In this document: positions 10,952 to 62,944 of the stretch, piece after piece
Layout of the letters: each line of letters opens with the position of its first letter
Numbering within the stretch: the stretch's first letter is position 1
Source of the DNA: Paeniglutamicibacter quisquiliarum
Lineage (GTDB): Bacteria; Actinomycetota; Actinomycetes; Actinomycetales; Micrococcaceae
DNA: 64,000 nucleotides
Assembly: GCF_019084045.1 (NCBI RefSeq)
Contig: NZ_JAHRED010000001.1
Span: 124,001-188,000, forward strand
Direction of reading: 5' to 3'
Translations under genes and position numbers: made by a program
The notes under the pieces: generated by a model
What the model was told of the DNA's origin: nothing
What the model saw: the letters and a program-made list of their open reading frames with translations, nothing else
Databases searched by the model: none

Positions 10952-11305
10952 ATGGAGTGGGTCATTGACACTGAACTCATCGCAGACTGGCTCATGGGAC
11001 TGGATGATTCTTCCTATGGCCAAGTCGTTGCTGCCCTTGAACTGCTGGGCGAGAGAGGGCCACATTTGGGTAGGCCTTTGGTTGACTCCATCGTCGGATC
11101 GGAACATGGCAACATGAAAGAGTTGCGACCGGGCTCGAAAGGACGGACGGAGCTGAGACTGCTCTTTGCATTTGATACCCGGCGTCGGGCTATCTTTTTA
11201 GTGGCTGGCGACAAGTCCGGGGATTGGGCTGGTTGGTACAAGAAGAATCTCCCCATTGCTGATGAACGATTATCGCGGCACCTTGAGCACGAAGACGGAC
11301 GGTGA
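10952..11305 (+). CDS. HigB/RelE-type (Gp49-like) toxin of a toxin-antitoxin pair
   Basis: A 117-aa RelE-superfamily protein of the phage-derived Gp49/HigB type. Typical features are the C-terminal core 'GRTELRLLFAFDTRRRAIFLVAGDKSGDWAGWYKKNLPIAD' in part, with basic residues expected to cut ribosome-bound mRNA, and a helical N-terminus 'VIDTELIADWLMGLDD'. ATG 10952 is preferred; a TTG lies two codons upstream. The toxin-first order with an XRE protein overlapping or directly following is the classic HigBA arrangement. A GTTATATAAC palindrome lies 22 bases upstream. The pair has lower GC than its neighbours, suggesting transfer. Confidence 0.82.
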   Translation: MEWVIDTELIADWLMGLDDSSYGQVVAALELLGERGPHLGRPLVDSIVGSEHGNMKELRPGSKGRTELRLLFAFDTRRRAIFLVAGDKSGDWAGWYKKNLPIADERLSRHLEHEDGR

Positions 11306-47248: not shown

Positions 47249-48112
47249 ATGATCGGCACACTCAATGCCCTGGTAGACCTCGTCGAGCGAAACCTCAGCG
47301 AATCGATCGACGTCGCGGCCTTCGCCCGCAAGCACGGGACGACCGAATACCACCTGCGCAGGATGTTCTCGGCGCTGGCCCGGATGCCCTTGTCGGAATA
47401 CGCGCGCCGACGCCGGATGACTCTCGCCGGTGCCGACCTCGCGGCGGGGGATCCGAACCTGCTGGATGTCGCTGTGCGCTACGGCTACGGATCGGTGGAG
47501 GCGTTCGGGCGGGCATTCCGCTCGGTGCACGGCACCGGCCCGGCCGAGGTGCGCCGTCATGGCGGTCCGCTCAGCACACAACCCATGCTCAGGTTCCGCC
47601 TGAGCGTCGAAGGGAGCACCCCGATGGACGTCACCATCACCCACAAGCCCGAATTCGTTCTCGCAGGACACGCGGCGCAGGTCCCGCTCATCCACGAGGG
47701 CGTCAACCCGCACATCCAGCGGCATATTGCCGGCATTGCGCCCGGCGAACACGCGCGGCTCAAGGCGCTGGGGGACACCGACCCCGCCGGCATCCTGGCC
47801 GTCACCGCGGAGGTGGAACCGGACGCGCCGGAGGGATCGATGCTCACCTACCTCCACGGGGTCGCGGTCAATGCGGCAACCGCGCTGCCCGATGACCTCG
47901 ACACCATCCGGCTCGAGGCGGGGGCCTGGGCGGTGTTCTCCTCCCGGGGCCCGTTCCCGGAGGCGCTGCAACAACTGTGGGCCGCGACGGCGACGGAGTG
48001 GTTCCCCTCGAATCCGTGGCGGCTGCGCCCAGGGCCATCGATGCTGCGTTACCTCGAGCTCACCGACACCTATGCCTCGTGCGAACTTTGGTTGCCCGTC
48101 GAGAAGTCCTGA
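47249..48112 (+). CDS. AraC family regulator with GyrI-like effector domain
   Basis: A 287-aa protein: two AraC-type HTHs at residues about 8-105 ('VDVAAFARKHGTTEYHLRRMFSAL' region and 'DVAVRYGYGSVEAFGRAFRSVHGTGPAEV'), then a GyrI-like ligand domain ('VTITHKPEFVLAGHAAQVPL'). This N-terminal HTH plus C-terminal GyrI order is that of Rob/SoxS-like and multidrug-sensing activators. GGAGG lies just before ATG 47249. It precedes an MBL-fold hydrolase by 66 bases. A decayed partial copy of both genes lies at 60375-60752. Confidence 0.87.
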   Translation: MIGTLNALVDLVERNLSESIDVAAFARKHGTTEYHLRRMFSALARMPLSEYARRRRMTLAGADLAAGDPNLLDVAVRYGYGSVEAFGRAFRSVHGTGPAEVRRHGGPLSTQPMLRFRLSVEGSTPMDVTITHKPEFVLAGHAAQVPLIHEGVNPHIQRHIAGIAPGEHARLKALGDTDPAGILAVTAEVEPDAPEGSMLTYLHGVAVNAATALPDDLDTIRLEAGAWAVFSSRGPFPEALQQLWAATATEWFPSNPWRLRPGPSMLRYLELTDTYASCELWLPVEKS

Positions 48113-48178: not shown

Positions 48179-48985
48179 ATGTCATGGGTCGAAGTAGCAG
48201 CCGACGTTTTCGTCAAGAGATATGAAGCGGGCGACGTCAACGTGGTGGCAATCCTCGGGCCCCAGGGAGTGACTGTCATCGACACGCGAGGCTCACCGGC
48301 GGAAGCGCAGGAGATCGTCGACGACGTGGCCGAACGCTTCGGCATGCCGATCGTTGGTGCGGTCAACACCCATGCACACTACGACCACAGCTTCGGCAAC
48401 TCAGTCTTTGCCGACCTCGGTGTTCCGGTGATTGGGCACCACCGGATTCCCGACCACTACGCCGCCCTCGAGGGGCCCCGGCTGCGCGCCTGGCAAGCCG
48501 ACCCGGCTGGCGAACCCGACAAAAAGTGGGACCACGTGGTGTTGACCCAGCCCACGGTCCTGATCCAACGGTCCACGACGCTCACCGCAAGCGGGCGCGA
48601 CATCGAACTCATTCCGATCTCGCGCGGCCACACCGACACGGACCTGGTCGTATGCGTGCCCGATGCCGGAGTCTGGGCGCTCGGTGACGCGATCGAGGAA
48701 TCCGGCCCGCCCATGTTCGGCTCGGGCTGTTGGCCACTTGAATGGCCAGCGGCGCTGGACGAGGTTCTGCTCAGGGTGCAGCCGGGCGACGTGGTGGTTC
48801 CCGGCCATGGGCGGGTGGTTGACCGCGAATTTGCCGCGCGGCAAGCCATTGACCTTCATGCGGTGGCGGATGCCATTCGCGACGCCCATACAGCCGGAAC
48901 AGAAATTGGGGACGCCGCGGGGCTTCCATGGCCGACGTGGATGCTACGGTCGGCTTTCGAACAGGGGTTTCCACAGCTGCGCTAG
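48179..48985 (+). CDS. MBL-fold metallo-hydrolase
   Basis: A 268-aa metallo-beta-lactamase fold enzyme with 'NTHAHYDHSFGN' (His65, His67, Asp69, His70) as the first metal site, 'ISRGHTDTDLVV' and 'VPGHGRVVD' for the later histidines. Role is unassigned; the group includes lactonases, glyoxalase II and cyclase-like hydrolases. It follows the AraC/GyrI gene and may detoxify the compound sensed by it. It is convergent with the Ldh-family gene, 24 bases apart, and marks the left edge of the lower-GC island. Confidence 0.85.
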   Translation: MSWVEVAADVFVKRYEAGDVNVVAILGPQGVTVIDTRGSPAEAQEIVDDVAERFGMPIVGAVNTHAHYDHSFGNSVFADLGVPVIGHHRIPDHYAALEGPRLRAWQADPAGEPDKKWDHVVLTQPTVLIQRSTTLTASGRDIELIPISRGHTDTDLVVCVPDAGVWALGDAIEESGPPMFGSGCWPLEWPAALDEVLLRVQPGDVVVPGHGRVVDREFAARQAIDLHAVADAIRDAHTAGTEIGDAAGLPWPTWMLRSAFEQGFPQLR

Positions 48986-49009
48986 CGTCAGCCCAGCGGA
49001 CCATGGTCG

Positions 49010-50062
49010 TCATTGGTGTCGGTTGAACCGAGGCTGTGGGCCCAATTCAGTAGTCGTTTTCTGGTTATTGACCGATAGTAGTCTTTCGTGAATATCCTTA
49101 TCGAGGGTCAACCCGTTGTCCCTCGCCTGCTCGCGCGTCTCGATCTGCCGCGAGCCTGGCACATGCACGCCATGCTCCGTATGGAGTCTCCCCAAATGCG
49201 CTGCGAGTCTACTGCCAAACTCCGCATTGAGCAGTTCTGGCTTGATTGCAAGAATGAAGAGTCCCACTGCCGGGCTGGTTTCTCCTTCCAAATACGAAGG
49301 TGCATCCAACGACCACGAGGCACCCGATGCAGTGGCCAAGATTTCCACCATCATCGCGATATTTGCACCCTTGGACCCACCGAATGTCAGCAGGGCGCCC
49401 ATAAGGGCCTCCTGACTATTCGTCGTAGGGCGACCATGCTTGTCCACGGCCCAACCCTTCGGCAGTTCCCGCCCCTCCCCGGCCGCCTGTCGAATATTGG
49501 CAAATGCTGTGGCACTGGAGGACTGGTCAATGAGTAGCGGTTGGATTCCCACTCCCAAAGGTGCACCAAATGCCATCGGATTAGTACCGTAGACGGGTTC
49601 CTGCGCCCCACGTGTCACCACTTGTGCAGGGGCATTTGCCACTGCGAACGACAATAGGTCGCGTCTAGCTAGACGGTCAACGAAGTAGCCAAGAGCGCCA
49701 CAGGTATAGGCGTTTCGCTGGCTAAAAACGGCAACCCCCAAATCTTGAGTTGTCTCCACGATATCTTCGAACGCATTGTCAAAGCCAAGGTGGGCTATAC
49801 CGCCGGCCGCGTCGGACAGAATAATGGCCTTGGCCGGACGAGTGGTTGTGGGCTCCGCAGAGCCAGCAATCCTCCCGTCACGCAAAGCATCCAAGTAATC
49901 AAAAAAATGCAAAAAACCTAACGACCCTGCCCCTGCCGCCTCAGCATCGACTGTGGCCTGCGCCAGGGACACTGCACTCTGTTTACTGGCACCGAGTGCA
50001 ACTGCCGCCCGGATGCACAGCTTCGTGGCCTCCTCCAGGGTGAGGGTGATCATCTTCTCCAC
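49010..50062 (-). CDS. Ldh/malate dehydrogenase-2 family ketimine reductase, likely delta1-pyrroline-2-carboxylate reductase
   Basis: A 350-aa NAD(P)H-dependent reductase of the MDH/LDH2 (Ldh) family, which includes delta1-pyrroline/piperideine-2-carboxylate reductases. Family blocks: 'RDGRIAGSAEP', 'YGTNPMAFGAPLG' and 'TFGGSKGANIAMMVEIL'. The usual N-terminal SHGxxR motif is replaced by Ser47-Leu-Gly-Phe-Leu-His52, a variant seen in some members. GTG 50062 is taken as start; ATG 50053 is possible. It follows the aconitase X genes by 39 bases. Reduction of delta1-pyrroline-2-carboxylate would give L-proline, linking hydroxyproline dehydration to the proline catabolic genes in the same operon. 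Confidence 0.85.
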   Translation of the reverse strand: MEKMITLTLEEATKLCIRAAVALGASKQSAVSLAQATVDAEAAGAGSLGFLHFFDYLDALRDGRIAGSAEPTTTRPAKAIILSDAAGGIAHLGFDNAFEDIVETTQDLGVAVFSQRNAYTCGALGYFVDRLARRDLLSFAVANAPAQVVTRGAQEPVYGTNPMAFGAPLGVGIQPLLIDQSSSATAFANIRQAAGEGRELPKGWAVDKHGRPTTNSQEALMGALLTFGGSKGANIAMMVEILATASGASWSLDAPSYLEGETSPAVGLFILAIKPELLNAEFGSRLAAHLGRLHTEHGVHVPGSRQIETREQARDNGLTLDKDIHERLLSVNNQKTTTELGPQPRFNRHQ

Positions 50063-50101
50063 AGTTCACTTGACCTCAAAGGCTCCCAATGACTCAACAC
50101 G

Positions 50102-51370
50102 TCAGGCTACCGCCCACTCCGGCGTTGTGACGATGGGTGCACCGGCTACCGCTGATTCAACACAATCACTCATCGAGCCGAAGTAGACGCCACGCCTGAT
50201 CAGTCCAGGACCGTAATGGGCGAACTTCCCCGAATTAGTCATGACAGTCTGCATCTCATTGGAGAACATGTCGGAGTTGAGCATACACAGGCAGTTGTCA
50301 GTGCTAAAGCGGCCACCGAACGCTGCGATCATTTCCGCCCAACCCTCGCGTGTGGCCTCTTCAAGGACCATCCGGTTGGTTGTAATGAGAACGTCTACCT
50401 TGGCATTGCGTTTCTTTCCTCGAACGAGTTCAGCCAACTCTGCGCAGTCCCCCAATGTGAAGTGCGGACTACCCATGACCACCAAGTCCAATTTATTGCC
50501 ACTGCCGGTAGACAGCCCATCAGTGGTGTGCATGAGGTCTGCAAGACTGACATTCAGTGTTTTCTGTGGCTCCTGCCCGCCCAATGCCGCCTCCAGGGTC
50601 GGGGCTTCGGGTGTCACCCCCACGATGTGAAACATACCGACCGCGCCAGATGTTGCAACGGCCGCGCAGAAGTTCTTGAGGTCCTCCAGCGACGGCGCTT
50701 CCATTAGCCCGTCAATGACGGGCACCAACTCCCCTGCGTGTTTTCCCACCAGGTAGCCCAAGGCTGTGTAGAAGGATCCGTCGACGCCGGATACTGGTGG
50801 GACGTTGACTAGAAAACTGCCGTGTCTGTTTTCCGGTATGTGAAGCCCTGCCAAGGGTGCTCGGCCGGTTATGGCCGCGCAGATGTCCAAGAAATCACCA
50901 TGTCGGTTGGTTCGAGCACCGATGACACTGTTGGCGTATGCGATGGCATTTGATTCGGCCCATACGATGTCCTGCCCGAAAGTAGGTGCTGTCGGAAACA
51001 CATACGGTGTGCAGGAAAAGATGGGGGCCGCACCCAGGTTTTCGAATCCCGTAGCCAGTCGGTCTGCCGAGCCTGCAAATTCGGCGTCGATATTTTGGTC
51101 CTTCCATCTTCTGCGATCGATGGAAATCGCATTTATGGTGGTGGGCACCCGGACTTTGGCGCCCTGCTCAACCAATCTTTCGATGACATTTAGGCTGCCC
51201 GGACCGGTGTAGATGCTTCCGCCCACATGGACGTGGGATACGTCGATGAGTTCAGTTGCGTTTTGGATGCGCGCAATGCGCACCACAATGCGCATTGCTG
51301 CTTGCGTACCGAGGCCCATTCTTCCGTCGAGCATTTGCTGGTCTTTTTCCGAGAGTAACAACTCGTTCAC
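50102..51370 (-). CDS. Aconitase X large subunit (DUF521), likely cis-3-hydroxy-L-proline dehydratase
   Basis: A 422-aa aconitase X catalytic-domain protein. Marks include 'SHVHVGGSIYTGPGSLNVIE', 'IFSCTPYVFPTAPTFGQDIVWAESNA' (in part), 'ARTNRHGDFLDICAAITGR', 'DNCLCMLN' and 'GVYFGSMSDCVESA'; the cysteines are candidates for Fe-S ligands. Bacterial AcnX has been shown to dehydrate cis-3-hydroxy-L-proline to delta1-pyrroline-2-carboxylate, while the archaeal form is a phosphomevalonate dehydratase. Here proline-degrading genes and an Ldh-family reductase adjoin, so the hydroxyproline function is strongly favoured. ATGA overlap with the small subunit gene. Confidence 0.9.
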   Translation of the reverse strand: MNELLLSEKDQQMLDGRMGLGTQAAMRIVVRIARIQNATELIDVSHVHVGGSIYTGPGSLNVIERLVEQGAKVRVPTTINAISIDRRRWKDQNIDAEFAGSADRLATGFENLGAAPIFSCTPYVFPTAPTFGQDIVWAESNAIAYANSVIGARTNRHGDFLDICAAITGRAPLAGLHIPENRHGSFLVNVPPVSGVDGSFYTALGYLVGKHAGELVPVIDGLMEAPSLEDLKNFCAAVATSGAVGMFHIVGVTPEAPTLEAALGGQEPQKTLNVSLADLMHTTDGLSTGSGNKLDLVVMGSPHFTLGDCAELAELVRGKKRNAKVDVLITTNRMVLEEATREGWAEMIAAFGGRFSTDNCLCMLNSDMFSNEMQTVMTNSGKFAHYGPGLIRRGVYFGSMSDCVESAVAGAPIVTTPEWAVA

Positions 51371-51837
51371 TTGCCATTCCCATCATCGGTAGAAACTGAA
51401 ACTGTCCCGTCAGGGAGGATGTCCAGGCATTTGGCTTCAAGCGCTGTTGTGAAGTCTTCGTCTGACAGCACTACAACGGGGATGCACCGGTCGTAAAACT
51501 CCTCAAAGACAACAACACCAAGGGCGATGATCTCATCGGTGCGGTTCAGGATGATCCCGGCGGGCGCGTGTCCCGAAACGAGGGCATCTAACAGCACCGC
51601 ACTTCCAGTGCTTGAGCCCTTGCCATGGGGGACGACGAAGATTTTTCCGGTTAGATCATGCCCAAATAGGGCGTGACGGCGATCGATGATCGTACCAGTC
51701 TCAGGATCGTAGCCGCCCCAGAAACTGATCATTTCCCGTGTGCCGCGGACTTCTCCGCTAGCAAAACCCGACACTAGTACTGTCGCTGACAACTTTTGGC
51801 CGGTTATGTGCGGGCCCACCCGGTTTCGAATCGCCAT
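51367..51837 (-). CDS. Aconitase X small (swivel, DUF126) subunit
   Basis: A 156-aa DUF126 protein, the swivel domain of two-polypeptide aconitase X. 'FWGGYDPETGTIIDRRH' and 'FVVPHGKGSSTGSAVLLD' are diagnostic, the latter contributing active-site serines. The start is ATG 51837 (AGGGAA upstream), 11 bases after the dehydrogenase gene; the frame to 51924 runs into that gene. It is coupled to the large subunit by ATGA. Confidence 0.9.
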   Translation of the reverse strand: MAIRNRVGPHITGQKLSATVLVSGFASGEVRGTREMISFWGGYDPETGTIIDRRHALFGHDLTGKIFVVPHGKGSSTGSAVLLDALVSGHAPAGIILNRTDEIIALGVVVFEEFYDRCIPVVVLSDEDFTTALEAKCLDILPDGTVSVSTDDGNGK

Positions 51838-51848
51838 CACGCGGTTCC

Positions 51849-53495
51849 CTATGAACCCATGTAGGGGTAGGTCCAGTCCGTGGCCGGAGACATGTTCTCG
51901 TGAATGAATCGACCGCTGATCCAACGCTGAAGGGCAAGCCTGGACCCTGTCTTGTCATTGGTGCCCGATGCCCGGCCACCACCGAAGGAGACCTGTCCCA
52001 TAAGAGCACCGGAGGGTTTGTCGTTGACGTAGGTCATTCCTGCAGTGTTCCGCAGGGCATTGAGCGCCTGCGAAATGGCCTTGCGGTCGGAAGCGAAAAT
52101 CGACAACGTCAACGCGTACTCACTTGCACCGTCGATGATGGGCAGCAGGCTCTCCCAGTCTTTGTCTTCGTATACATAGACAGTGAGTAGCGGACCAAAG
52201 AACTCCTCGGACATGGTGAATGAGGTGGGATCATCAGTCTGGAATACGGTCGGATCAACGAACCATCCCTTTTCCGGGCGGACTGTGCCGCCAGCAAGGA
52301 GTTTGTGGCTGCTGAGATTCTTGGCCTGGCCGATCGCTCCCTCAAGGCGGCGCAGGGAATTTTCGTCAATGACGGCACCCATAAACGTTTCGTGTTCAGT
52401 GATATCACCAACAGTCAGTGAGCGGACAGTGTCGATCAAATCGTCTTTCAAACGCGTCCACATGCTCTTGGGAATATAGGTTCGCGAAGCCGCGGAGCAC
52501 TTTTGCCCCTGGTATTCGAATGCGCCCCGGACCAGTGCGGTTTTTACGGCGTCGACATCGGCTGATGGGTGGGCCAGGACAGCATTCTTTCCCCCGGTTT
52601 CACCGACGATGCGCGGGTATGACTTGTACTTGTCGATGTTGTTTGCGGTCTTCTTCCACAAGCTGCGGAACACATCTGAGGAGCCGGTAAAGCTAAGCCC
52701 CGCGAAGTCTGGATGTGCCGTGGCTATGTCGGAAATTTCCCGTCCCGAGCCGTGGACCAAGTTGATCACGCCGTCTGGCAGTCCTGCTTCTCGGAACATA
52801 CGCATGATTACATCGCTGCTGAGCGCAGATTTCTCAGAAGCTTTCCACACAACTGTGTTTCCCATGAGGGCAGGGGTGCCAGGGAGGTTGGCTCCAATGG
52901 CGGTGAAGTTAAACGGTGTAATGGCCGTGACGAAGCCTTCCAAGGGACGCTGGTCGAGGAAGTTGGCTTCGCCTTGTAGTGATGTCGGCTGGTCGTTGTA
53001 GATTTGTTGGGCCAGAAATGGGTTGTAGCGGAAGAAGTCCGCAGTCTCGCATGCTGCATCAATTTCAGCTTGATGGAAGGTTTTTGATTGACCAAGCATG
53101 GTCGTGGCGACCAATTCGTCGCGATACTTGCCAGCGGCGAGGTCTGCAACGCGAAGGAATATCGCGGCACGCTCCCACCACGGGGTACGTGACCAGTCGT
53201 GTTGGGCGGCGAGGGCAGCATCGATGGCCGATTTCGTGAGGTCCTCATCTGCCGTGGGGACCTGTCCCAGTACCAAGGAGTGTTCGTGAGGGGCCACGAC
53301 ATCCTTGAGCTGACCGTCCATGATCTTCTCACCATTGATGTAGTGCGGCAATTCCCGGACAGCCGAGGTTACATCCGCCAATGCGGACTTGACGGACGTG
53401 GCTTCAGCGGATCCCGGTTCAAATGTTCTGGCCGGCTCGTTGACGGGGTTCGGCACCTTGAAGTTTCCTGCCATGCTGACTACTTGCTGGGTCAC
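51849..53495 (-). CDS. L-glutamate gamma-semialdehyde (P5C) dehydrogenase
   Basis: A 548-aa aldehyde dehydrogenase of the P5CDH type: 'GFVTAITPFNFTAIGANLPG', 'FTGSSDVF', catalytic Glu299 in 'GETGGKN', Cys333 in 'GQKCSAASR', and 'NDKPSGALMGQVSFGGGRASGTNDKTG' (in part) near the C-terminus. It oxidises glutamate gamma-semialdehyde to glutamate with NAD+. GTG 53495 has AGGA seven bases upstream; an ATG lies seven codons later. It is located between the GntR regulator and aconitase X genes, thus closing the route to glutamate. Confidence 0.93.
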   Translation of the reverse strand: MTQQVVSMAGNFKVPNPVNEPARTFEPGSAEATSVKSALADVTSAVRELPHYINGEKIMDGQLKDVVAPHEHSLVLGQVPTADEDLTKSAIDAALAAQHDWSRTPWWERAAIFLRVADLAAGKYRDELVATTMLGQSKTFHQAEIDAACETADFFRYNPFLAQQIYNDQPTSLQGEANFLDQRPLEGFVTAITPFNFTAIGANLPGTPALMGNTVVWKASEKSALSSDVIMRMFREAGLPDGVINLVHGSGREISDIATAHPDFAGLSFTGSSDVFRSLWKKTANNIDKYKSYPRIVGETGGKNAVLAHPSADVDAVKTALVRGAFEYQGQKCSAASRTYIPKSMWTRLKDDLIDTVRSLTVGDITEHETFMGAVIDENSLRRLEGAIGQAKNLSSHKLLAGGTVRPEKGWFVDPTVFQTDDPTSFTMSEEFFGPLLTVYVYEDKDWESLLPIIDGASEYALTLSIFASDRKAISQALNALRNTAGMTYVNDKPSGALMGQVSFGGGRASGTNDKTGSRLALQRWISGRFIHENMSPATDWTYPYMGS

Positions 53496-53537
53496 AGTAT
53501 TTTCCTGTCTTAGAGTGAGTCTTTAATGTTTAATGAT

Positions 53538-53571
53538 CTGGTTGCTGCCACTCGAAGTTGGTGGCGACCAG
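53538..53571 (-). other. Intercistronic hairpin between GntR and P5C dehydrogenase genes
   Basis: CTGGT/ACCAG (53538-53542, 53567-53571) and GCCAC/GTGGC (53547-53551, 53561-53565) form a bulged stem with a 9-base loop in the 92-bp gap. It may lower read-through or protect the message; low certainty. Confidence 0.3.
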
Positions 53572-53587
53572 GTTCAATTCTTGGTGC

Positions 53588-54262
53588 CTAGGTTTGGGCG
53601 ATCAGCCGTTTTTCCAGGCGTCGCCTGGCACTGGTTAGCGATTCCCTAGTGATCGTGGCAACGGATTCGACATCCCTTGCCTGTACTGCGGCTAACAATC
53701 GTGGCTGCGGGGTCCACAGCGAAGGATCTTGCTTCTCCATCGCCTCCGTGGCGCCGAGTACCTTGTAGGCCCGGCATTGGTTCCAGAGGTTGTCGATGAG
53801 GGTGACAAGAACTGGATTTCGGCTGGCACTGTAGAGCACCATCAGCATTAGTTCATCGTGGTGCAGGGCGCCGAGCCAATTTTCTGCTGCCACATCGTCG
53901 GATAGTTTTTGGCATGCTTCCGACATCTGCTCGACCTCGGCTTCGCTGATGTGTTCAGTTCCGCGTCGGGCCGCCTCGACTTCCAAGAGGGTTCGAACGT
54001 CATAGATCTGTATCAGTTCCGTTGCTGTGAAAGTGCGCACGACAGCGCCTTTGTGAGGCGTGCTCGATGCAAGTCCCGCTTCTTCCAGCCGGCGGATCGC
54101 GTCACGTACGGGCATGACACTCGTCCCGACCATCTTGGCAAGATCCCGCACCCGGAGTGGCGTTCCGGCAGCGAGTTCCCCCGAAAATATGGCACCCTGC
54201 AATGCCTCAAACACCTGATCTGCAACAAGCGTTGGTTTCACTTCAAGATTGATTGGACTCAT
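53588..54262 (-). CDS. GntR family (FCD) regulator of the hydroxyproline/proline operon
   Basis: A 224-aa FadR-subfamily regulator. The wHTH at about residues 10-75 includes 'VFEALQGAIFSGELAAGTPLRVRDLAKMVGTSVMPVRDAIRRLEEAG' in part; the FCD ligand domain has 'IYDVRTLLEVEAARR' and metal-binding histidines in 'ALHHDELMLMVL'. It lies between the proline dehydrogenase and P5C dehydrogenase genes. The likely operators are two TGTGATCACA palindromes in the divergent promoter at 55394 and 55511. The effector could be proline, hydroxyproline or a ketimine (inference). Confidence 0.86.
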   Translation of the reverse strand: MSPINLEVKPTLVADQVFEALQGAIFSGELAAGTPLRVRDLAKMVGTSVMPVRDAIRRLEEAGLASSTPHKGAVVRTFTATELIQIYDVRTLLEVEAARRGTEHISEAEVEQMSEACQKLSDDVAAENWLGALHHDELMLMVLYSASRNPVLVTLIDNLWNQCRAYKVLGATEAMEKQDPSLWTPQPRLLAAVQARDVESVATITRESLTSARRRLEKRLIAQT

Positions 54263-54349
54263 AATTCGAGGACTTTCTCTGCGGAATCTGGTGTGAGGGA
54301 ACTCGGCCGTTTTAGTCGGCGGAGCTCAATGCAACTGCGGTTCGAATTT

Positions 54350-55261
54350 TCATCCCCCCACCAATGAACGCAAGAACAGCAGTAAGTTCCCCGGTTTTTC
54401 GGCCATGCGACGCATCAAATAGGGATACCACTGGGTACCATATGGCAGGTATACCCTGACGCGGTACCCTTCGCGAACTAGTTCTTCCTGCAATTTGCGG
54501 CGAACGCCGTAAAGCATCTGGAACTCGAAGTCGTTCTTGTCTAGACCGATATCCATCGCCGATTTCTTGATGTGATCGACGCACGAGTCATCGTGCGTTC
54601 CGAACGCGGGATCCGGGAGGTTCTCCAGTGCCCAGCCTGCCAGGTAGTTGTACTGGGCCGTTACTTCCTCGGCATTTCGCAATGCCGTGCCTACAGTCTC
54701 GTCGAAGGCGCCCTTAACCAGTCGGATGCGTGGCCTAATTTCGGCGAATGACAAAAGGTCTTGCATTGTCATGCGCATGTTGGCCTGCATCGCCACCCGA
54801 GTCTCAGGGTACTCCGTGAGGATCGACCTGAAAATCCCAAGGGTGTCACGGCCCACGGAGCTGTGCTCCATGTCGACTTCGACCTGCGCACCATGAAGCT
54901 TGGCCGCTTCCAACAGGGTCTTTAGGTTGTTGGCGCAGTGCTGCTTGTCGAATACGATGCCAAGCTGCGAGAGTTTCACGGACACCGTGGAGCCCGGCGC
55001 CCTGCTCGGGATTGCTTCAATGGCTGCCAAGTATTCGTTCGTGGCCGCCTGCGACTGTTCCAATTTACCGACGGATTCACCCAGCAGATCCAAGCTGACA
55101 TCAATGCCAGAGGCATTAAGGCTCTCGGTGACTCGCCAAGCATCGTCGTCGGAAAGTCCGGCGACATAGCGCTCCACCAGGGGGCGTGCCAGAGGATTCC
55201 GCGTGGCGATGGATTCAAGTTTTTTGTTTTCCGCCACTTTCAACAACAAACGATTTGGCAC
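54350..55261 (-). CDS. Proline dehydrogenase (monofunctional, FAD)
   Basis: A 303-aa PRODH TIM-barrel enzyme that oxidises L-proline to delta1-pyrroline-5-carboxylate, feeding electrons to quinone at the membrane. 'RIRLVKGAF' and the C-terminal 'EFQMLYGVRRKLQEELVREG' with 'YRVRVYLPYGTQWYPYLMRR' are the substrate/FAD-binding hallmarks. GTG 55261 has AAGGA six bases upstream. First gene of the catabolic operon, divergent from the ABC transporter. It is the separate PutB-type form rather than the PutA fusion. Confidence 0.92.
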   Translation of the reverse strand: MPNRLLLKVAENKKLESIATRNPLARPLVERYVAGLSDDDAWRVTESLNASGIDVSLDLLGESVGKLEQSQAATNEYLAAIEAIPSRAPGSTVSVKLSQLGIVFDKQHCANNLKTLLEAAKLHGAQVEVDMEHSSVGRDTLGIFRSILTEYPETRVAMQANMRMTMQDLLSFAEIRPRIRLVKGAFDETVGTALRNAEEVTAQYNYLAGWALENLPDPAFGTHDDSCVDHIKKSAMDIGLDKNDFEFQMLYGVRRKLQEELVREGYRVRVYLPYGTQWYPYLMRRMAEKPGNLLLFLRSLVGG

Positions 55262-55689
55262 GGCATTTCCTTACTGCACCCACATGCATGGGGCTGTTCT
55301 CGAGAGCCGGGATGTCCGGCTGATGGCGCACGAGCATGAACTAGAAAAACGTGATGCGTATCACGAAGTGATGCAACGAGTTCAAACATATAGTGTGATC
55401 ACAAATCACACAAGAGGCGCAGTGGATTTACTTGCAGCTCGCCGCTATCCGCAATATTTCGCGTAAACAGCGGGTAGAGAGAATATTCCGCTAAACCCAT
55501 TGACGCGATATGTGATCACAGAATAGGTTGTCTGTGAGATAGAGCACAGGTCGCGATCATCGTGAATAGCTGAAACAACTACTCAAAAGTTCTTTCTCCC
55601 TCTGTTCCCCTCAATTCGCCATCCATGTCATGGCCAGGTGGTCCGGTTCGGAGCTGCCCAGTCACAACAAATCTTCACGAGGTGTCCAA
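55262..55689. promoter_or_regulatory. 428-bp divergent control region with two TGTGATCACA operators
   Basis: No gene is supported between the divergent proline dehydrogenase and ABC transporter genes. It has two perfect palindromes TGTGATCACA at 55394-55403 and 55511-55520. Around the first lies a further inverted repeat GTGTGA (55393-55398) / TCACAC (55406-55411). ATCACGAAGTGAT (55355-55367) is a related dyad. The region is AT-rich. It fits a GntR operator controlling both transcripts. Confidence 0.65.
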
Positions 55690-56499
55690 GTGTCCGAAAA
55701 TAAAGACTTAGCGTCCACGGAAGTGGGAACATTCATGGCAATCAACCAACAGCCACAAGTGGGGCTTCGCGGTATTCGTAAAGAGTTCCACGGAATGACA
55801 GTCTTGTCTGATGTGACCCTAGATGTTGCCAAAGGCGAAGTCGTCGCTTTTATCGGCCCCAGCGGTGCCGGCAAGAGCACTCTCCTTCGCTGCGTGAATT
55901 ATCTGGAAGTGCCAACGGCTGGCGAGTTGCTTTTGGATGGCAAGCCGGCGGTGGCCGTTGCCTCCAACCCAACGCGCGCTGAGTTAACTTCATTGCGCCG
56001 ACAAGTGGGAATGGTTTTCCAGTCATTCAATCTGTTCCCGCACATCAGCGTTTTGCGCAACGTTGCACTCGCACAAGAGCGGGTTCTTGGGCGCTCCAGG
56101 GAAGAGGCCGAAGTCCGTGCCATGGAATTACTGACGAGGGTTGGTCTTGCTAACAAAGCTGATGCCAAACCCACTAGATGCAGTGGCGGGCAGCAACAAC
56201 GCATAGCCATTGCCAGGGCCATGGCTCTGGAGCCAAGTGTCATGCTTTTCGACGAGCCGACTTCGGCGCTTGACCCTGAATTGGGCGGGGAGGTCCTGAA
56301 CGTCATGCAGGAGCTAGCCGCTTCGGGCATGACGATGCTCGTGGTTACCCATGAAATGTCGTTCGCCCGAAAAGTTTCGGATCGAACCGTCTTTATGGCC
56401 GATGGAAAGATTGTGGAGCAGGGCCACCCTGACCAACTGTTTGGATCCCCGGAGCACAACCGAACAAAGAAATTCCTTGAGGCGGTGCTCGAGCGATGA
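55690..56499 (+). CDS. ABC transporter ATP-binding protein, polar amino-acid type (GlnQ/HisP-like)
   Basis: A 269-aa ATPase of the polar amino-acid uptake family. Walker A 'GPSGAGKST', Q-loop '[20 protein letters not shown]', Walker B '[16 protein letters not shown]' and H-loop '[11 protein letters not shown]' are present. The signature motif reads 'CSGGQQQR' in place of LSGGQ. GTG 55690 is favoured, because GAGG lies seven bases upstream; ATG 55735 is an alternative. It overlaps the first permease gene by ATGA. Probably imports cis-3-hydroxyproline and/or proline. Confidence 0.9.
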
Positions 56500-57134
56500 T
56501 TGAGGCAGCCTCGTTCCTATTTCAGGGATTGTCGACAACGATTATCATCACCATCGGCTCTTTCCTGATCGGTGCAGTATTCGGGGTTCCGATTGCTTTG
56601 GCTCGGATGTCCTCAATTGCTCCACTTCGTTGGCTAGCGACTGCATATGTCGAACTTGTCCGGGGTATCCCGCCGATCGCCTGGATGCTTTTGCTTTATT
56701 TTGGCCTAGGGCACTACCTAAAACTGTCCCCACTTCTCGCCGCGTGCATCTCGCTTGGTGCAGTTGCCACCGCCTACCTGGCGGAAAATTACAGAGCGGG
56801 AATCAAATCGGTCGCCGCAGGTCAATGGGAAAGCGCAGACGCGCTCGGACTCAATAGCCGCGACACTTTTTGGCGAATCATCGCCCCCCAAGGAATTGGC
56901 GTAGCGCTTCCTCCGTCCGCCGGGTATGCGGTTGGCTTGCTCAAAGAGTCTGCAGTTGCTTCAGTGATCGGCGTCAGTGACATCACTTTTCAGGCCCTCA
57001 CCCTTAACCAGCAAGGCAACCCCGGCTTGCCAATTTTTTTGGCAGCCGGCATCATCTATCTGCTGATCAGCCTACCAATCGGGGCATTTGCCCGACGAGC
57101 TGACAGCTTTATTCGAACCCGAAGCGCGGTGTGA
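56496..57134 (+). CDS. Amino-acid ABC transporter permease, first subunit
   Basis: A 212-aa HisM/GlnP-type permease. '[22 protein letters not shown]' and '[37 protein letters not shown]' (in part) are the conserved first helix end and the EAA loop. About five helices. ATGA overlap with the ATPase and GTGA overlap with the second permease make the three genes one translational unit. Confidence 0.9.
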
Positions 57135-57778
57135 CCATGATTGACCAATGGATCTCTTGGCTACCGGACCTCATGGCCGGGCTCAAAATTAGCTTGATGG
57201 TGACCGGTTTTAGCCTGTTGTTCGGCTTACCGCTAGGACTGGTTCTCGCCTTTGGCATGATCAATAGATCAAAAACACTCCGGTATATCACGATTGGGCT
57301 AGTTGAGCTCGGCCGGGGAATTCCCTTGCTTGTTGTCCTCTATCTGGTTTACTTCGGCTTACCGACGGCTGGGGTGGTACTTTCCTCACTCGCAGCCGCC
57401 GTGGTAGGTATTTCCCTGAACACCGGCGCCTACACCAGCGAAATCTTCCGCGCCGGTCTGCTCAGTGTGCCGCGCGGCCACGTCGAAGCTGCCCAAAGCT
57501 TGGGCCTGAACTGGATAGACGAAGCCAGATACATCGTTCTTCCCCAAGCTATCCGGGCCGTGGTTCCCCCGCTGATGTCGTATAGCGTCATCGTTTTCCA
57601 AGCTACCAGCCTCGGTTTCGCGATCGCACTCTCCGAACTTCTGAACAGTGCCTACCAAATCGGTTCGGTATCTTTCCAGTTCCTGAGTGTGTTCGCGTTG
57701 ACGGGCCTAATCTACGCAGTACTTTCCATCGCCGTATCCCGCCTGGTAGATACCGTTCACACACGGACCAGCGTCTAA
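57131..57778 (+). CDS. Amino-acid ABC transporter permease, second subunit
   Basis: A 215-aa HisQ-type permease with 'LVELGRGIPLLVVLYLVYFGLP' and the EAA loop 'RGHVEAAQSLGLNWIDEARYIVLPQAIRAVVPP' in part. The GTG at 57131 overlaps the preceding stop; ATG 57137 is an alternative. It should pair with the first permease as a heterodimer. Confidence 0.9.
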   Translation: MTMIDQWISWLPDLMAGLKISLMVTGFSLLFGLPLGLVLAFGMINRSKTLRYITIGLVELGRGIPLLVVLYLVYFGLPTAGVVLSSLAAAVVGISLNTGAYTSEIFRAGLLSVPRGHVEAAQSLGLNWIDEARYIVLPQAIRAVVPPLMSYSVIVFQATSLGFAIALSELLNSAYQIGSVSFQFLSVFALTGLIYAVLSIAVSRLVDTVHTRTSV

Positions 57779-57809
57779 TTGCTTGTCTCGTCCCAACCTA
57801 GGAGTTATC

Positions 57810-58652
57810 GTGAATCGCACCAAACTTTCCGCACTCATCCTTACCTGCATGCTGCCACTGGCCGCTTGCAGTGCAGGCACCCCCACTGCTGATGCAGTCA
57901 GCGCGGACTGCACGCCAATCGTTGCCGACGTTACAACTATCAACGAGGGCAAACTAACCATTCAGGTTCCTGAATACCCGCCCTATGTCTCCTTGAAGGG
58001 CGGGACTCTCTCCGGGGTCGACGGCGTCCTGCTGACAGAAGTTGCCAAAAAACTCTGCCTGACACCGGACGCCAAGACGGCCAGCTTCACGGCGCTGTAT
58101 GAGTCGGTTCGTACCGGAAAAGCGGACATGACTGCCGGCAACACCTACATCAATGACGAACGCGCAGAATTGTATGAAGTCAGCAACCCCGTCTACAGCG
58201 ACAAAATGGCCCTGCTGACAACGGATGGTGCATCCACGATTGAGTCCCTGCAAGGCAATGCAGTCGGGACGCCCCAAGGGTACCTGTGGGTCAAAGACCT
58301 GCAAAATGCGCTCGGAGCTGAGAACGTGAAGCTTTATGCCTCGGAAGACGCCGTCTACCAGGACGTTCGTGCCGGTCGAATAGCCGCCGGTGTAATGACC
58401 TTTGGCGGTGCTTCCCAAGCGGTGAAGGCCAATAGTGACACCGAATTGAAGGTCGTGGAGTTGGAGCCTGATCCCCGAGTTCAAGCCTCCGTGGGAGCGG
58501 CCCGGACGGCTGCGCTCACCCCGAAGGGAAACACCAAATTGATTGAAGCAGTGAATCTGGTTATTCAGCAAATGCATGATGATGGTTCGTTGAAGACTGC
58601 ACTGGAAGAGGTTGGTCTGCCAGGCAGTGCCGCGGATGTCGCTACCAAATAG
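57810..58652 (+). CDS. Amino-acid ABC transporter substrate-binding lipoprotein (family 3)
   Basis: A 280-aa family-3 binding protein. The lipobox 'PLAAC' puts the lipidated cysteine at residue 20. Mature regions 'LTIQVPEYPPYVSLKGGTLSGVDGVLLTEVAKKL' (in part), 'VRTGKADMTAGNTYINDERAELYEVSNPVY' (in part) and 'AVGTPQGYLWVKDLQNAL' are typical. GTG 57810 has AGGAG five bases upstream. Context points to a (hydroxy)proline ligand, not proven. Confidence 0.9.
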   Translation: MNRTKLSALILTCMLPLAACSAGTPTADAVSADCTPIVADVTTINEGKLTIQVPEYPPYVSLKGGTLSGVDGVLLTEVAKKLCLTPDAKTASFTALYESVRTGKADMTAGNTYINDERAELYEVSNPVYSDKMALLTTDGASTIESLQGNAVGTPQGYLWVKDLQNALGAENVKLYASEDAVYQDVRAGRIAAGVMTFGGASQAVKANSDTELKVVELEPDPRVQASVGAARTAALTPKGNTKLIEAVNLVIQQMHDDGSLKTALEEVGLPGSAADVATK

Positions 58653-58675
58653 ACCCCTGCCGCTCTGCCCACGAC

Positions 58676-58702
58676 GGCCTCGTGATCCAAGTTCACGGGG
58701 CC
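58676..58702 (+). other. Intercistronic stem-loop after the binding-protein gene
   Basis: GGCCTCGTGA (58676-58685) and TCACGGGGCC (58693-58702) pair over ten positions with one G-U wobble around a 7-base loop, 24 bases past the stop. No U-tract follows. It probably limits transcription into the amine oxidase gene or protects the transporter message. Confidence 0.5.
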
Positions 58703-58757
58703 GCTGTGGACAGTGCCCAGGCGCATTCCTCACCTCTCTTTAAGAAAGGCATGATCC

Positions 58758-60080
58758 TTGGAAACACACGATATTGTGATTGTTGGCGGCGGACCTGCAG
58801 GGATTGGCGTAGCGTATTTCCTTCGCGAGTCAGGACTCGATGTTCGGGTGGTAGAGGCAGCCTCGGAGGTCGGTGGGCGGACCAAAACAGTGGCGCTGGC
58901 CGGCACCGTTGCGAACGCCGGCGCGCTCTTCGTTTACAGAAATACTGACACCCACGAACTGGTTGAAGAATTGGGACTGTCCGCTGTCCCGTTCAGGCCC
59001 TCGACTTATGGCATCCATATTGATGGGGTGACATCCATAGCAGCGAACGATGACGATCTCGTATCGAATCTGCCCATATCTCCGGATGAGAAGGCGGAGT
59101 TGCGCTCGTTCATGCAGGAGGTTCTCGATGAGTACACCGATTACACAGTAAACGGGAGTCTGTCCGCCGATGCTGACGCGCTTGGTGCACAAACCGTCTC
59201 AAGCCGGATTGCTCACCTGAGTGACACGGTGCGATTGATCATTGAAACCGCCATCCGTGGTGGTGCCGTGGGCAAAACTTCGGAACTTTCGGCGAAATAT
59301 GCGCTCAGGTACTTCGCAAGCTACGTTGCGAGGGAGAAAGACAATCGACTTTTCGCGATTGATGGCATGCAGGAGATACCCCGTGCCATGTCTCGCCATC
59401 TTGCAGAAGATACTGTCATGCTTTCCACAACCGTCGTCGATGTTTCGGAAGACGCAACCGGGACACTAGTGAAAATCGAGACGGAAGGCCCGGGAGGAAA
59501 ATCCACCCTACTCGCACGACAAGTTGTCATTGCGATACCGGCACCCTTAGTAGCCAATGTCTGCAAGGACCTTCCAGACTGGAAGTTACGGGCGCTTGAC
59601 ACCGCCCACACTCCTGGAAGCAGCACACTTTGCATCGTGGCAGACATACAAGGCCTCCCGCAGTTCAAAGACTGGTCATTCGTAACGACGGTAGGCAAGA
59701 AGTTCGATGCCATCATTAATCCTGTTCCTGGAGGCATACTCAATGAGAACATCGCCCAATTCGTTTGCTATGGAAATTCAGTCGGCTATCAGCCTAGTTT
59801 TCCCGCCACGCCAGAGTTGGTGGACGGCTGGATTGAAGATTTTCTCGAAGTGGCGCCTGAACTTCGGGGGCGCATAATTGATGTCTCCGCCCATAGCTGG
59901 TTGCATTGCTTCTCCGTGCTCTCGCCATCCCGGGCAGGAAATCTTCCCCAACTCCAGCGCAATGTGGGTCCCCTTCACTTCATAGGTGACTACACCTCAT
60001 CCACCGCCGGAACCCACGGAGCATTTTCCGAAGCAAAACGAGTGGCTGACCAAATCAGAACCACGGTTAAGGCAACGTAA
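58758..60080 (+). CDS. FAD-dependent amine oxidase-type flavoprotein
   Basis: A 440-aa flavin amine oxidase/protoporphyrinogen-oxidase-fold protein. The Rossmann motif 'IVIVGGGPAGIGVAYFLRES' is followed by 'VVEAASEVGGRT'; the C-terminal FAD block is 'LHFIGDYTSSTAGTHGAFSEAKRVADQI' in part. The start is TTG 58758, with AAAGG eight bases upstream; no in-frame ATG fits the dinucleotide-binding fold. The gene is the last of the transporter operon in the hydroxyproline island. None of the known steps from cis-3-hydroxyproline to glutamate needs it, so it may feed another cyclic imino acid into the pathway. Confidence 0.83.
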   Translation: METHDIVIVGGGPAGIGVAYFLRESGLDVRVVEAASEVGGRTKTVALAGTVANAGALFVYRNTDTHELVEELGLSAVPFRPSTYGIHIDGVTSIAANDDDLVSNLPISPDEKAELRSFMQEVLDEYTDYTVNGSLSADADALGAQTVSSRIAHLSDTVRLIIETAIRGGAVGKTSELSAKYALRYFASYVAREKDNRLFAIDGMQEIPRAMSRHLAEDTVMLSTTVVDVSEDATGTLVKIETEGPGGKSTLLARQVVIAIPAPLVANVCKDLPDWKLRALDTAHTPGSSTLCIVADIQGLPQFKDWSFVTTVGKKFDAIINPVPGGILNENIAQFVCYGNSVGYQPSFPATPELVDGWIEDFLEVAPELRGRIIDVSAHSWLHCFSVLSPSRAGNLPQLQRNVGPLHFIGDYTSSTAGTHGAFSEAKRVADQIRTTVKAT

Positions 60081-60374
60081 CTTGGAGCATCCGTGTCGGT
60101 TGGTGGAAAGGCAGTGACCACATGAACGCTCCCATCGCCAATCCAACGAAAACGTTCCGGCCCGAATAGACGCCTTGCATCTTGAAGATCCAATATTTTG
60201 TCGGAAATCCGCGGTGATATAAAATCGTCCAGCGAAATTTTCCAAACAGGGGTCGCTTGCCAATCCATCCCAATCAAATGGAAAAGGATCTCGTGTCCAG
60301 CCACGATTGTGAACGGAACACTTTAAACCCTATATACGGAGGTCTGATCGCATGAGGTTGTTTACAACCTCTGT
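60081..60374. other. 294-bp non-coding stretch after the island
   Basis: AT-richer sequence between the amine oxidase stop and the AraC-MBL remnant. Short open frames here have no recognisable domain or ribosome binding site. I see no insertion-sequence end, integrase or tRNA. Confidence 0.4.
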
Positions 60375-60752
60375 CACTCAATGCCCTGGTATAATTCGTC
60401 GCGCGAAATACCAGCGCCGCGAACCTCGCCGCGGCTTTCGCATGTGAGCAAGGGACGACCGAGTACGACCTGCGCAGGATGTCCTCGGCGCTGGCCCGGA
60501 TGCCCCTGTCCGGATACTCGCGGCGCCGGATGAATTGATGCCCACCTACTTCCACGGCGTGGCGATCAAATCGGAAACGACGCTGCCGGACGACCCCGAC
60601 ACCATCGAGCGGGCGGCCGGGGCCTGGGCGGTGTTCTCTTCCCTGAGACCCTTCACGAACGCGCAGTAGCTGAGGAAACAGTGGATGCCGGCCAGCTTCC
60701 GTGGCCGAGCGGATGCTCCGCTCGGCATTCAAACAGGCTTTTTGCAGCTAGG
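60375..60752 (+). pseudogene. Decayed, internally deleted copy of the AraC/GyrI-MBL locus
   Basis: Three collinear blocks match the intact locus at 47249-48985. Bases 60375-60540 match the AraC HTH start ('CACTCAATGCCCTGGT' is identical, and the DLRRM-like block follows). Bases 60541-60668 match the GyrI part ('TYFHGVAIKSETTLPDDPDTIERAAGAWAVFSS', in part), after a large internal deletion. Bases 60682-60752 match the 3' end of the MBL gene (LPWPSGCS-like, with the 'CAGCTAG' end). Stops at ATGAATTGA and CGCAGTAG break it. Orientation is the same as the intact copy. Confidence 0.8.
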
Positions 60753-61671: not shown

Positions 61672-61774
61672 TAATCTCCATGTAAATAATATTGGACGCA
61701 GATATGAATTTTGTGGATTACTTGAACACAGAAGCGGCAAACTAGCTAACCGCACAGTGACCCCAGGAGTTTCC

Positions 61775-62944
61775 ATGAGCCAGTCGACACCACACGAAGC
61801 ATCCGAATACGTAGTCATCGGAGCGGGCCTTGCCGGTTCCGCGGCAGCATGGAAGCTGGCTCAGCGCGGGTACGAAGTAGCGCTCCTGGAACGCAGCACA
61901 CCAGCCAACGCCGCCGGCAGCTCACACGGCTCCGCCCGCATCTTCCGCTACGCCTACCCGGAACCGTTCTACGCGGATCTGGTGAAGCAGTCGAAGACCG
62001 GCTGGGATGAACTTGAAGAGATCGTAGGTACTCAACTGATCAACCCCGTGGGGGCAGTCGACTACGGACCCACCCGTAACCCCCGCAACCTTGCCAACGT
62101 GCTGGAACAGGTGGGCATTGAACACGAGCTGATGGGTGCTGCAGAGGCACGCGAGCGCTTTGCCGGCATTGCCTTTGATACCGAGGTTCTGTGGCAGCCC
62201 GGGGCGGGTGTCATCGACGCCGAGGCGTCCGTGCTGGCGATGGTTGCCGAGGCGGAAAATCATGGGGCCCGTGTGGAGATCAACTGGCCGGTGAAGAGCA
62301 TCGAGTCCACCGCCACCGGATACAGGATCCATTGTGAGGACGGCCGAACCCAGGACTGCGCCAAGGTCATTGTTGCCGCCGGTGGTTGGTTGCCGGAATT
62401 GCTGGGCAACCTGTCACTCCCCAGTGGATTCGTATCGGGCATTCCAGCCTTTGAAGTCTTCCAGGAGCAGGCCTTCCACTTCCCCTACGCAGATTCCAAT
62501 CCGGAGTCCGTTGGCGCGTGGCCCACATACATCCACAAGGCAGCCGAGTTCCAGTCCTATGGACTGCCGGGGGGACGAGACGCCGAGTTCCGTGGGCAGA
62601 AGGTTGCCGAATACAAGGGTGGGCGCATCATGAGGGATGCCTCCGAACAGGACGGATTGGTCAGCACCGCCAACCGCGAGCGCGTGATCAACTACGTGAA
62701 GAAGTTCCTGCCGGGCCTGATTCCGGTGCCCTATGCGGAGACCACCTGCATCTTCACCAGTACGCCCACCGAAGACTTCATCCTTGATGAAACCAACGGA
62801 ATCACCATCATGTCCCCTTGCTCGGGTCACGGTGCCAAGTTCGCCCCGCTGCTCGGTGATCTTGCAGCGGATCTGGCCACAGGTACTGCGGGTGTGCCGG
62901 AGGTTTTCCGCCCGGGATCCAAGGCCGCAAGCCTGCTCCTCTAG
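61775..62944 (+). CDS. Sarcosine oxidase/N-methyl-L-amino-acid oxidase-like flavoprotein (MSOX/SolA type)
   Basis: A 389-aa DAO-family flavoprotein. 'YVVIGAGLAGSAAAWKLAQRG' binds FAD, 'SSHGSARIFRYAYPEPFY' is the MSOX/SolA signature, and 'CIFTSTPTEDFILDE' contains Cys325, at the position that carries the covalent 8-alpha-cysteinyl FAD in monomeric sarcosine oxidase. 'SPCSGHGAKFAP' closes the site. ATG 61775 has AGGAG five bases upstream; a GTG at 61757 is less likely. It oxidises a secondary amine such as an N-methyl amino acid to an imine plus H2O2. In operon with the amidohydrolase downstream. Confidence 0.88.
   Translation: MSQSTPHEASEYVVIGAGLAGSAAAWKLAQRGYEVALLERSTPANAAGSSHGSARIFRYAYPEPFYADLVKQSKTGWDELEEIVGTQLINPVGAVDYGPTRNPRNLANVLEQVGIEHELMGAAEARERFAGIAFDTEVLWQPGAGVIDAEASVLAMVAEAENHGARVEINWPVKSIESTATGYRIHCEDGRTQDCAKVIVAAGGWLPELLGNLSLPSGFVSGIPAFEVFQEQAFHFPYADSNPESVGAWPTYIHKAAEFQSYGLPGGRDAEFRGQKVAEYKGGRIMRDASEQDGLVSTANRERVINYVKKFLPGLIPVPYAETTCIFTSTPTEDFILDETNGITIMSPCSGHGAKFAPLLGDLAADLATGTAGVPEVFRPGSKAASLLL

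Follow-up and report, generated by a model that had tools for sequence, protein, structure and literature searches.

What does a bacterium break down with a gene island that encodes an aconitase X (AcnX), an Ldh_2-family reductase, two proline-catabolic dehydrogenases, a flavin adenine dinucleotide (FAD)-type amine oxidase (AO), a GntR regulator and an ATP-binding cassette (ABC) transporter? The question is raised by positions 49010-60080 of a 64,000-nucleotide stretch of Paeniglutamicibacter quisquiliarum DNA (contig NZ_JAHRED010000001.1, positions 124,001 to 188,000; hereafter the window), which are filled by two divergent gene rows. The original prediction described a route from free cis-3-hydroxy-L-proline to glutamate. 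At slightly less than even confidence, we propose instead that the GntR-controlled island turns a cis-3-hydroxyproline-type imino acid into glutamate and that the substrate would be N-methyl-cis-3-hydroxyproline, derived from 3-hydroxyproline betaine, rather than the free imino acid.

Substituted pocket residues in AcnX and Ldh_2

AcnX is encoded on the reverse strand as a large subunit (50102-51370; Pfam AcnX PF04412, E 1e-141) and a small, swivel subunit (51367-51837; Pfam PF01989, E 9e-28), both over the Pfam gathering scores. The start of the small subunit is most likely the ATG at 51837 rather than 51924. Aligned to Agrobacterium tumefaciens AcnX (7CNP/7CNQ), the pair shares with Type-I AcnX (NCBIfam NF051439) the fold family, the three Fe-S ligand cysteines (equivalents of Cys273 and of the CxC pair Cys508 and Cys510), Glu292, Ser70, Lys530, Tyr534, Trp35 and Thr72, and it also keeps Ser293 and Asn294. 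Its small-then-large order is that of fused Type-I AcnX. It differs from Type I in consisting of two subunits, in having Gly at the Asp203 position of the large subunit and Ser at the Cys71 position of the small one, and in falling below the cut-off of NF051439, which spans both subunits as one chain and gave them 497 and 125 bits. In the A. tumefaciens enzyme the substrate nitrogen is bound by Asp203 and Thr72, and alanine mutants of Asp203 and Cys71 are inactive or almost so (PMC8184944). Plain transfer of the annotation cis-3-hydroxyproline dehydratase was considered and set aside since the nitrogen-binding Asp is gone; with this defining residue replaced, we would not place the window AcnX in that family.

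Asp203 is kept in all 31 landmark-bearing rows from the order and phylum samples, from which 10 of 41 rows, without the other landmarks, were left out. It is also kept in 78 of 80 landmark-bearing rows from a genome-contig set, giving 109 of 111 over the two collections, which may have species in common. This set comprises the best 80 AcnX loci among the matches listed from an alignment search; a single-protein query of the same contigs gave no AcnX relatives. The only other rows with Gly203 are L107 and L108, both from Pseudomonas and each 62% identical to the window AcnX. In a tree that was midpoint-rooted for drawing, the window groups with L106 (97/95) and then with L107 and L108 (100/100). 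L106 keeps Asp203, and Gly203 was thus either gained twice or reverted once. L109 and L151 join this split-AcnX group weakly (81/75), and the group adjoins fused Type I. In these two Bacillota loci the AcnX subunits occupy separate frames and keep the CxC cysteines, making them possible pre-fusion forms. In the two-subunit AcnX relatives of the order and family samples the large-subunit gene comes first wherever both genes were located, and the IIa-like members lack the third cysteine, that of CxC.

It is highly improbable that AcnX acts on an unrelated beta-hydroxy acid, with the proline genes a separate function in a shared gene row. AcnX Types IIc-IIf, of unknown function and without the landmark residues, offer a precedent (PMC8184944), but the window AcnX has the Type-I landmarks apart from Asp203 and Cys71, branches beside Type I and is packed amid proline-catabolic genes.

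The reductase (49010-50062, reverse strand; Pfam Ldh_2 PF02615, E 2e-72) is also altered. His44 and His116 of AllD have been called invariant in the Ldh_2 family, and the acid catalyst of DpkA is the equivalent of His44 (PMC3527362). The window protein has Leu in place of His44 (SHG to SLG) and Thr in place of His116, the second His of the HH/VH pair; a new His lies four residues on (SLGFLHF), where AllD has Arg48. L256 and L261, which come from two further genera of the family, share this pattern, with Leu or Val at the first site and Thr at the second; so do eight of eight sampled Rhizobium loci, which were hand-picked from 30 listed of 732 matching records and are not a random sample. Members of this variant subfamily share 45-54% identity. 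Among Ldh_2 proteins near the genome-contig AcnX loci, SHG is present in 21 of 22, the exception being L163. The DpkA/MLD2 pyrroline-2-carboxylate reductases (1WTJ) resemble the window protein in fold family, in identity (~30%) and in their imino-acid cluster setting, but it has the two replaced histidines and the new His and belongs to a separate subfamily. Two of the Rhizobium loci, L074 and L274, also encode an Ldh_2 of the normal SHG type, which in L074 is accompanied by a racemase-family gene of its own; the variant is thus probably no spare copy.

A methyl-bearing ring nitrogen would be the simplest chemistry accounting for the changes in both enzymes. Because an N-methylated ring has no N-H, AcnX would need no Asp203, and the reductase would need no histidine acid before hydride transfer, since the N-methyl iminium carries its positive charge from the outset. 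In such a pathway the ABC cassette would import the imino acid or its betaine, the latter being demethylated first to the N-methyl form. The split AcnX would then dehydrate the ring across C2-C3 to a cyclic enamine/imine, and the variant Ldh_2 would reduce C2=N to give an L-imino acid. Either AO or a flanking N-methyl-amino-acid oxidase-like (MSOX-like) enzyme would strip the N-methyl group before proline dehydrogenase (ProDH) converts L-proline to delta1-pyrroline-5-carboxylate (P5C) and P5C dehydrogenase (P5CDH) forms glutamate. Alternatively, AO may act on a D-imino acid and so provide this imine.

The predicted substrate, free cis-3-hydroxy-L-proline, would pass through delta1-pyrroline-2-carboxylate, L-proline and P5C to glutamate, with the changes in AcnX and Ldh_2 compensated elsewhere and AO providing an additional entry point, such as one for D-proline. 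We regard this version as possible yet doubtful. The window AcnX lies within the Type-I/IIa radiation and retains its cluster ligands and most of the catalytic residues, and the characterised Type-I and IIa enzymes are cis-3-hydroxyproline dehydratases (PMC8184944); moreover, reduction of pyrroline-2-carboxylate is reported for MLD2 proteins encoded near proline-racemase-family genes (PMC4113996). However, the D203A enzyme of A. tumefaciens is almost inactive (PMC8184944) and Gly stands at this position here, the NF051439 cut-off is not reached, and the Ldh_2 is unlike the DpkA kind found near AcnX in hydroxyproline clusters. The full route that had been proposed is plausible from Ldh_2 onward, but its entry step is less certain, the replaced AcnX and Ldh_2 residues leaving free cis-3-hydroxy-L-proline unsecured as the starting compound.

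Neighbourhoods of the relatives and the candidate substrate

Both Gly203 loci of Pseudomonas lie amid betaine/onium-type genes, which supports an N-methylated substrate. The order in L107 is short-chain dehydrogenase/reductase (SDR), AcnX, OCD reductase, GbdR-like regulator, GbcA-like Rieske protein, SDR, beta-keto acid cleavage enzyme (KCE), aldehyde dehydrogenase and SDR. That in L108 is ProX-type ABC genes, DddP, alcohol dehydrogenase (ADH), AcnX, OCD and EamA, then MFS, BCCT and a GbcB-like reductase. Matches over cut-off were obtained for ProX, DddP, KCE (as 3,5-dioxohexanoate cleavage enzyme) and a BCCT subfamily model. Seven onium markers were searched at 80 bits up to 8-9 kb on each side of AcnX, in loci of unequal length, several of them cut by contig ends. 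Onium/betaine markers were present in none of the 77 other genome-contig loci (L109-L185) and not in L106, and any of the seven was likewise absent from all 14 AcnX loci of the order sample; a proline-racemase-family gene occurs in 64 of the 77. This result is a contrast between neighbourhood types, not a blind test. The proline-racemase-family gene of L108 is 86% identical to one beside a variant Ldh_2 in Rhizobium.

The variant Ldh_2 gives a second line of support, since in half of the sampled Rhizobium loci it occurs with betaine transporters. In L074, L273, L274 and L276 an OpuAC-type (betaine) substrate-binding protein (SBP) and an Old Yellow Enzyme (OYE)-type flavoprotein lie within ~10 kb of it. 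We take the OYE-type genes to be StcD-like, an assumption that was not confirmed by comparison with an unannotated stretch of Sinorhizobium meliloti pSymB, in which the OYE-type proteins had no match.

Several observations weigh against an N-methylated substrate. The closest AcnX, L106 (69%), retains Asp203 and has a PutA-like and a proline-racemase-family gene as neighbours, a setting that favours the free imino acid. Only three Gly203 AcnX sequences were found (the window, L107 and L108), so that the marker contrast concerns two Gly203 loci, and the markers were themselves drawn from L107, L108 and L074. L107 and L108 have no marker in common, sharing only AcnX and the OCD gene, and in the draft containing L108 the AcnX small subunit (L108 7593-7993) reads in two frames. 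The names GbcA (155/670 bits), GbdR (231/480), GbcB (358/500) and OCD reductase all stand below their cut-offs, the KCE model that passes is not that of a betaine enzyme, and DddP is a dimethylsulfoniopropionate (DMSP) lyase. In Rhizobium, L073, L076, L275 and L277 have no betaine marker near the variant Ldh_2, which again suits the free imino acid, and three of the four loci that do are close kin (L074 and L274 ~99-100% alike, L273 ~90%). Relatives of the Ldh_2 and AO genes occur without AcnX, so that their Ldh_2 needs another imine source. Within the island neither a betaine-type transporter (OpuAC/BCCT) nor a Rieske demethylase was found, a transporter-marker search of the window was negative, and the island SBP belongs to the polar amino-acid type, with a likeness to the SBPs of imino-acid transporters.

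The two-frame readings of the L108 small subunit and of the L275 Ldh_2 (9866-11006) may reflect sequencing error or decay. Searches elsewhere in the genome for candidate demethylases were set aside: two Ring_hydroxyl_A matches lie far from the island and are 28-29% like the L107 Rieske protein, and a 37% match to a folate-type demethylase lies on another contig, unlinked to the island.

Like L-hydroxyproline (lhp) clusters, the island unites an ABC transporter, a GntR-type regulator, AcnX and a reductase. Unlike them, it was found on searching to have no proline-racemase-family or dihydrodipicolinate synthase (DHDPS)-family gene, and it encodes a dedicated ProDH, a P5CDH and a PF01593 oxidase instead. 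With the catabolism of stachydrine and 4-hydroxyproline betaine it shares the end from proline to glutamate, and some of its relatives have betaine transporters and flavin-type demethylase-like genes. It differs from these pathways in having no OpuAC/BCCT transporter or Rieske gene and in an entry through a 3-hydroxylated ring and dehydration. For 4-hydroxyproline betaine this comparison draws partly on general background. For stachydrine it follows the published route (PMC11337228, PMC12239276).

The betaine in question, 3-hydroxystachydrine, is a plant compound (PMC6200017, PMC8608490). No report of its bacterial catabolism was apparent in a literature search that covered titles and the openings of abstracts, with subscription journals mostly outside its reach. 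All of the enzyme families are known; the searchable literature yielded neither their combination nor the two pocket changes nor the proposed substrate. The island may therefore specify an unreported pathway for 3-hydroxyproline betaine or N-methyl-cis-3-hydroxyproline, comprising a Gly203 AcnX, a histidine-less Ldh_2 working without an acid catalyst, a PF01593 or MSOX-like demethylase and dedicated ProDH and P5CDH enzymes. This fuller proposal is put forward tentatively, with a confidence that falls somewhat short of even.

Gene content, sister clusters and a candidate operator

All of the named genes are open frames, and their Pfam family assignments lie far beyond chance. On the reverse strand, AcnX is followed toward the centre of the island by P5CDH (L-glutamate gamma-semialdehyde dehydrogenase; 51849-53495; Pfam Aldedh, E 6e-101), which exceeds the equivalog cut-off of TIGR01236 (706.5 against 613.6 bits), by the GntR/FCD regulator (53588-54262; Pfam GntR and FCD) and by a monofunctional ProDH (54350-55261; Pfam Pro_dh, E 2e-30). 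The best NCBIfam match of ProDH is to a Thermus-type model, below cut-off (232 against 500). Besides its Pro_dh domain it carries the Arg pair and adjoining Tyr near the C-terminus that have a functional role in such enzymes, as aligned with the Thermus enzyme (WYPYLMRRMAEKP). The forward row begins with a polar amino-acid ABC transporter, comprising the ATPase (55630-56499; Pfam ABC_tran, NCBIfam), permease 1 (56496-57134; Pfam BPD_transp_1, NCBIfam), permease 2 (57131-57778; named by position and by matches to permeases of related cassettes, not by its own domain scan) and an SBP_bac_3 substrate-binding lipoprotein (57783-58652; E 1.5e-22). It ends with AO (58758-60080; Pfam Amino_oxidase PF01593, E 1e-26), a candidate imino-acid oxidase or N-demethylase. 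Open frames, Pfam and NCBIfam thus bear out the predicted gene set in two divergent rows, and support its description as a single block with import, regulator and enzymes leading via proline and P5C to glutamate. The accompanying remark, that genes for proline catabolism normally lie elsewhere, is reasonable but leaves something out: the same genome holds a second ProDH domain (G000:C1:682472-683347) within a 1190-aa PutA-like frame, which makes the island ProDH an extra copy.

At the position that we take to be the usual amine-binding place, the SBP has no Asp. The SBPs of ordinary hydroxyproline clusters are without it too, a likeness that favours free cis-3-hydroxy-L-proline, and the missing Asp was therefore rejected as an argument for N-methylation.

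Although weak PF01593-type matches to AO occur in 387 of 395 family genomes, full-length orthologues (49-59%) were found in only five other genomes, in six copies. Fragments of AO orthologues (58-65% identical) at G1089:C1:1469569-1470056 and G1135:C11:427998-428228 suggest loss. In L257, L258, L259 and L260 AO adjoins a full ABC cassette of the island's type; in L261 the cassette is ~5 kb away, and in L256 only an SBP gene adjoins AO. L257 and L256 are the two copies of one genome, G265. Ldh_2 adjoins AO in two genomes (L256 and L261), and L256 additionally has a P5CDH (48%), a ProC-like gene and an OYE-type flavoprotein. A DHDPS-family gene is present in L257, L258 and L260. In L258 (14578-16179) and L260 (15398-16792) a second PF01593-type oxidase, ~22% identical to AO, has its own operator core beside DHDPS-family genes, perhaps a 4-hydroxyproline-type route using flavin amine oxidases.

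The most complete sister cluster is that of G1020, from another genus (L262 and L261). One row encodes P5CDH (74%), GntR (59%), ProDH (74%) and one extra frame; the divergent row encodes the ABC cassette (62-81%), an amidohydrolase, an MSOX-like oxidase, LysR, Ldh_2 (46%) and AO (50%). Operator cores precede ProDH, the ABC genes, the Ldh_2-AO pair, another GntR gene and the gene for a DAO+GCV_T protein of 813 aa, whose architecture is that of folate-linked demethylating dehydrogenases. G1020, one of the 395 family genomes examined, gave no AcnX match. AO, and in part Ldh_2, is thus a member of a recurrent imino-acid core. Since the ProDH, GntR, P5CDH and ABC set occurs in another genus without AcnX, AcnX looks like an addition rather than part of the core, and since the Ldh_2-AO pair of G1020 stands behind the same operator core, AO is probably part of the pathway. 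The earlier hunch that the FAD oxidase matters has thus gained ground from its recurrence near ABC cassettes and Ldh_2 and from this operator core.

These clusters also bear on a route that would run mainly from D-proline or another imino acid, in which AO would form the cyclic imine, Ldh_2 its L form, and ProDH and P5CDH the remaining products, with AcnX a late accessory feeding the same imine. G1020, which has the ABC, Ldh_2, AO, ProDH, GntR and P5CDH genes and the operator core before Ldh_2-AO, fits such a route, as do the AO orthologues near ABC genes, three of them (L257, L258 and L260) with the DHDPS-family gene known from 4-hydroxyproline routes. We nevertheless consider it unlikely. 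The window AcnX is not at the edge of its row but inside it, between P5CDH and Ldh_2, its subunit genes overlapping by 4 bp and the small-subunit gene separated from P5CDH by 11 bp. Furthermore, a D-imino-acid oxidase role for PF01593 enzymes is only inferred, and we know of no member with that activity.

Between the two rows, a palindromic candidate GntR operator, TGTGATCACAAATCACA, lies at 55394-55410 (forward strand, exact), and a second candidate with two mismatches lies at 55504-55520 (reverse strand). When TGTGATCACANATCACA was searched at no more than two mismatches, these were the only two sites in the 4.44-Mb genome, and the reversed control gave zero genome sites at the same threshold. 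In a test confined to the window and allowing no more than three mismatches, at least two matches were obtained with 7 of 100 shuffles; the case for the operator rests on genome-wide specificity and recurrence among relatives rather than on this test. A weaker core, GTGATCACA, is present again next to the related ABC/AO loci L258, L259, L260 and L261/L262, in four other genomes, and was not found in the G265 loci (L256 and L257). Among 267 loci scanned it also occurs once each in L107, L142, L156, L177 and L265, outside AO/ABC loci and with no evident link. We infer that the GntR protein binds the operator-like site.

Borders, spread and significance of the island

The G+C content is 55.6% across 48986-60700 and 65.7% in the remainder of the window (63.8% overall), and among windows of island length stepped every 500 bases the lowest value falls on the island. 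A 44-bp direct repeat, imperfect at 84% identity, marks both island edges; its left copy (48922-48965, forward strand) lies at the 3' end of a metallo-beta-lactamase (MBL)-fold gene. On the right, parts of the AraC-MBL pair recur as a degraded second copy (60375-60737, forward strand; ~81% to 47259-47420 and 47825-47945), which ends with the right copy of the repeat (60695-60737). The degraded copies and edge repeats are a clue to the island's mode of entry. The island is missing from the matching site of one congener (G007), where the left-flank AraC-MBL genes (93% identical DNA) directly meet a remnant of the right-flank LysR tail; because only a remnant is retained, loss in G007 is also possible. 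Within the genus, this genome is the only one of 15 with AcnX; in the order sample AcnX occurs over cut-off in 15 of 396 genomes. Matches occur in 35 of 395 family genomes (E <= 0.001), all but the window itself at no more than 44% identity, and in 43 of 396 phylum-sample genomes, the best full-length match being 45% identical. Taken together, the island was probably acquired horizontally.

The MSOX-like gene (61757-62944, forward strand), a possible N-demethylase that scores below cut-off against an N-methyltryptophan oxidase model (238/257 bits), is part of a flank that also occurs in congeners without the island. This LysR-MSOX-amidohydrolase flank was tried as a part of the island and rejected: it was found in 3 of 14 other genomes of the genus, which makes it at most a possible helper. 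Elsewhere in the window (21877-22809, reverse strand) lies a KCE homologue 53% identical to the KCE of the Pseudomonas locus L107.

If the proposed N-methylated substrate is correct, a function would be assigned to an AcnX branch with an altered substrate pocket, an Ldh_2 reductase could work without its two 'invariant' histidines, and genes would be named for the breakdown of 3-hydroxystachydrine, which together with stachydrine is reported to reach as much as 2% of the dry mass of Maerua edulis leaves (PMC6200017). The AcnX pairs that are split and have the small subunit first, in the window, Pseudomonas, Pseudonocardia and Bacillota, are candidates for the state that preceded fusion into one-chain Type I. 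Should the substrate prove to be unmodified cis-3-hydroxyproline, the island would still offer a compact set of genes that can be tested, together with a specific operator-like site.

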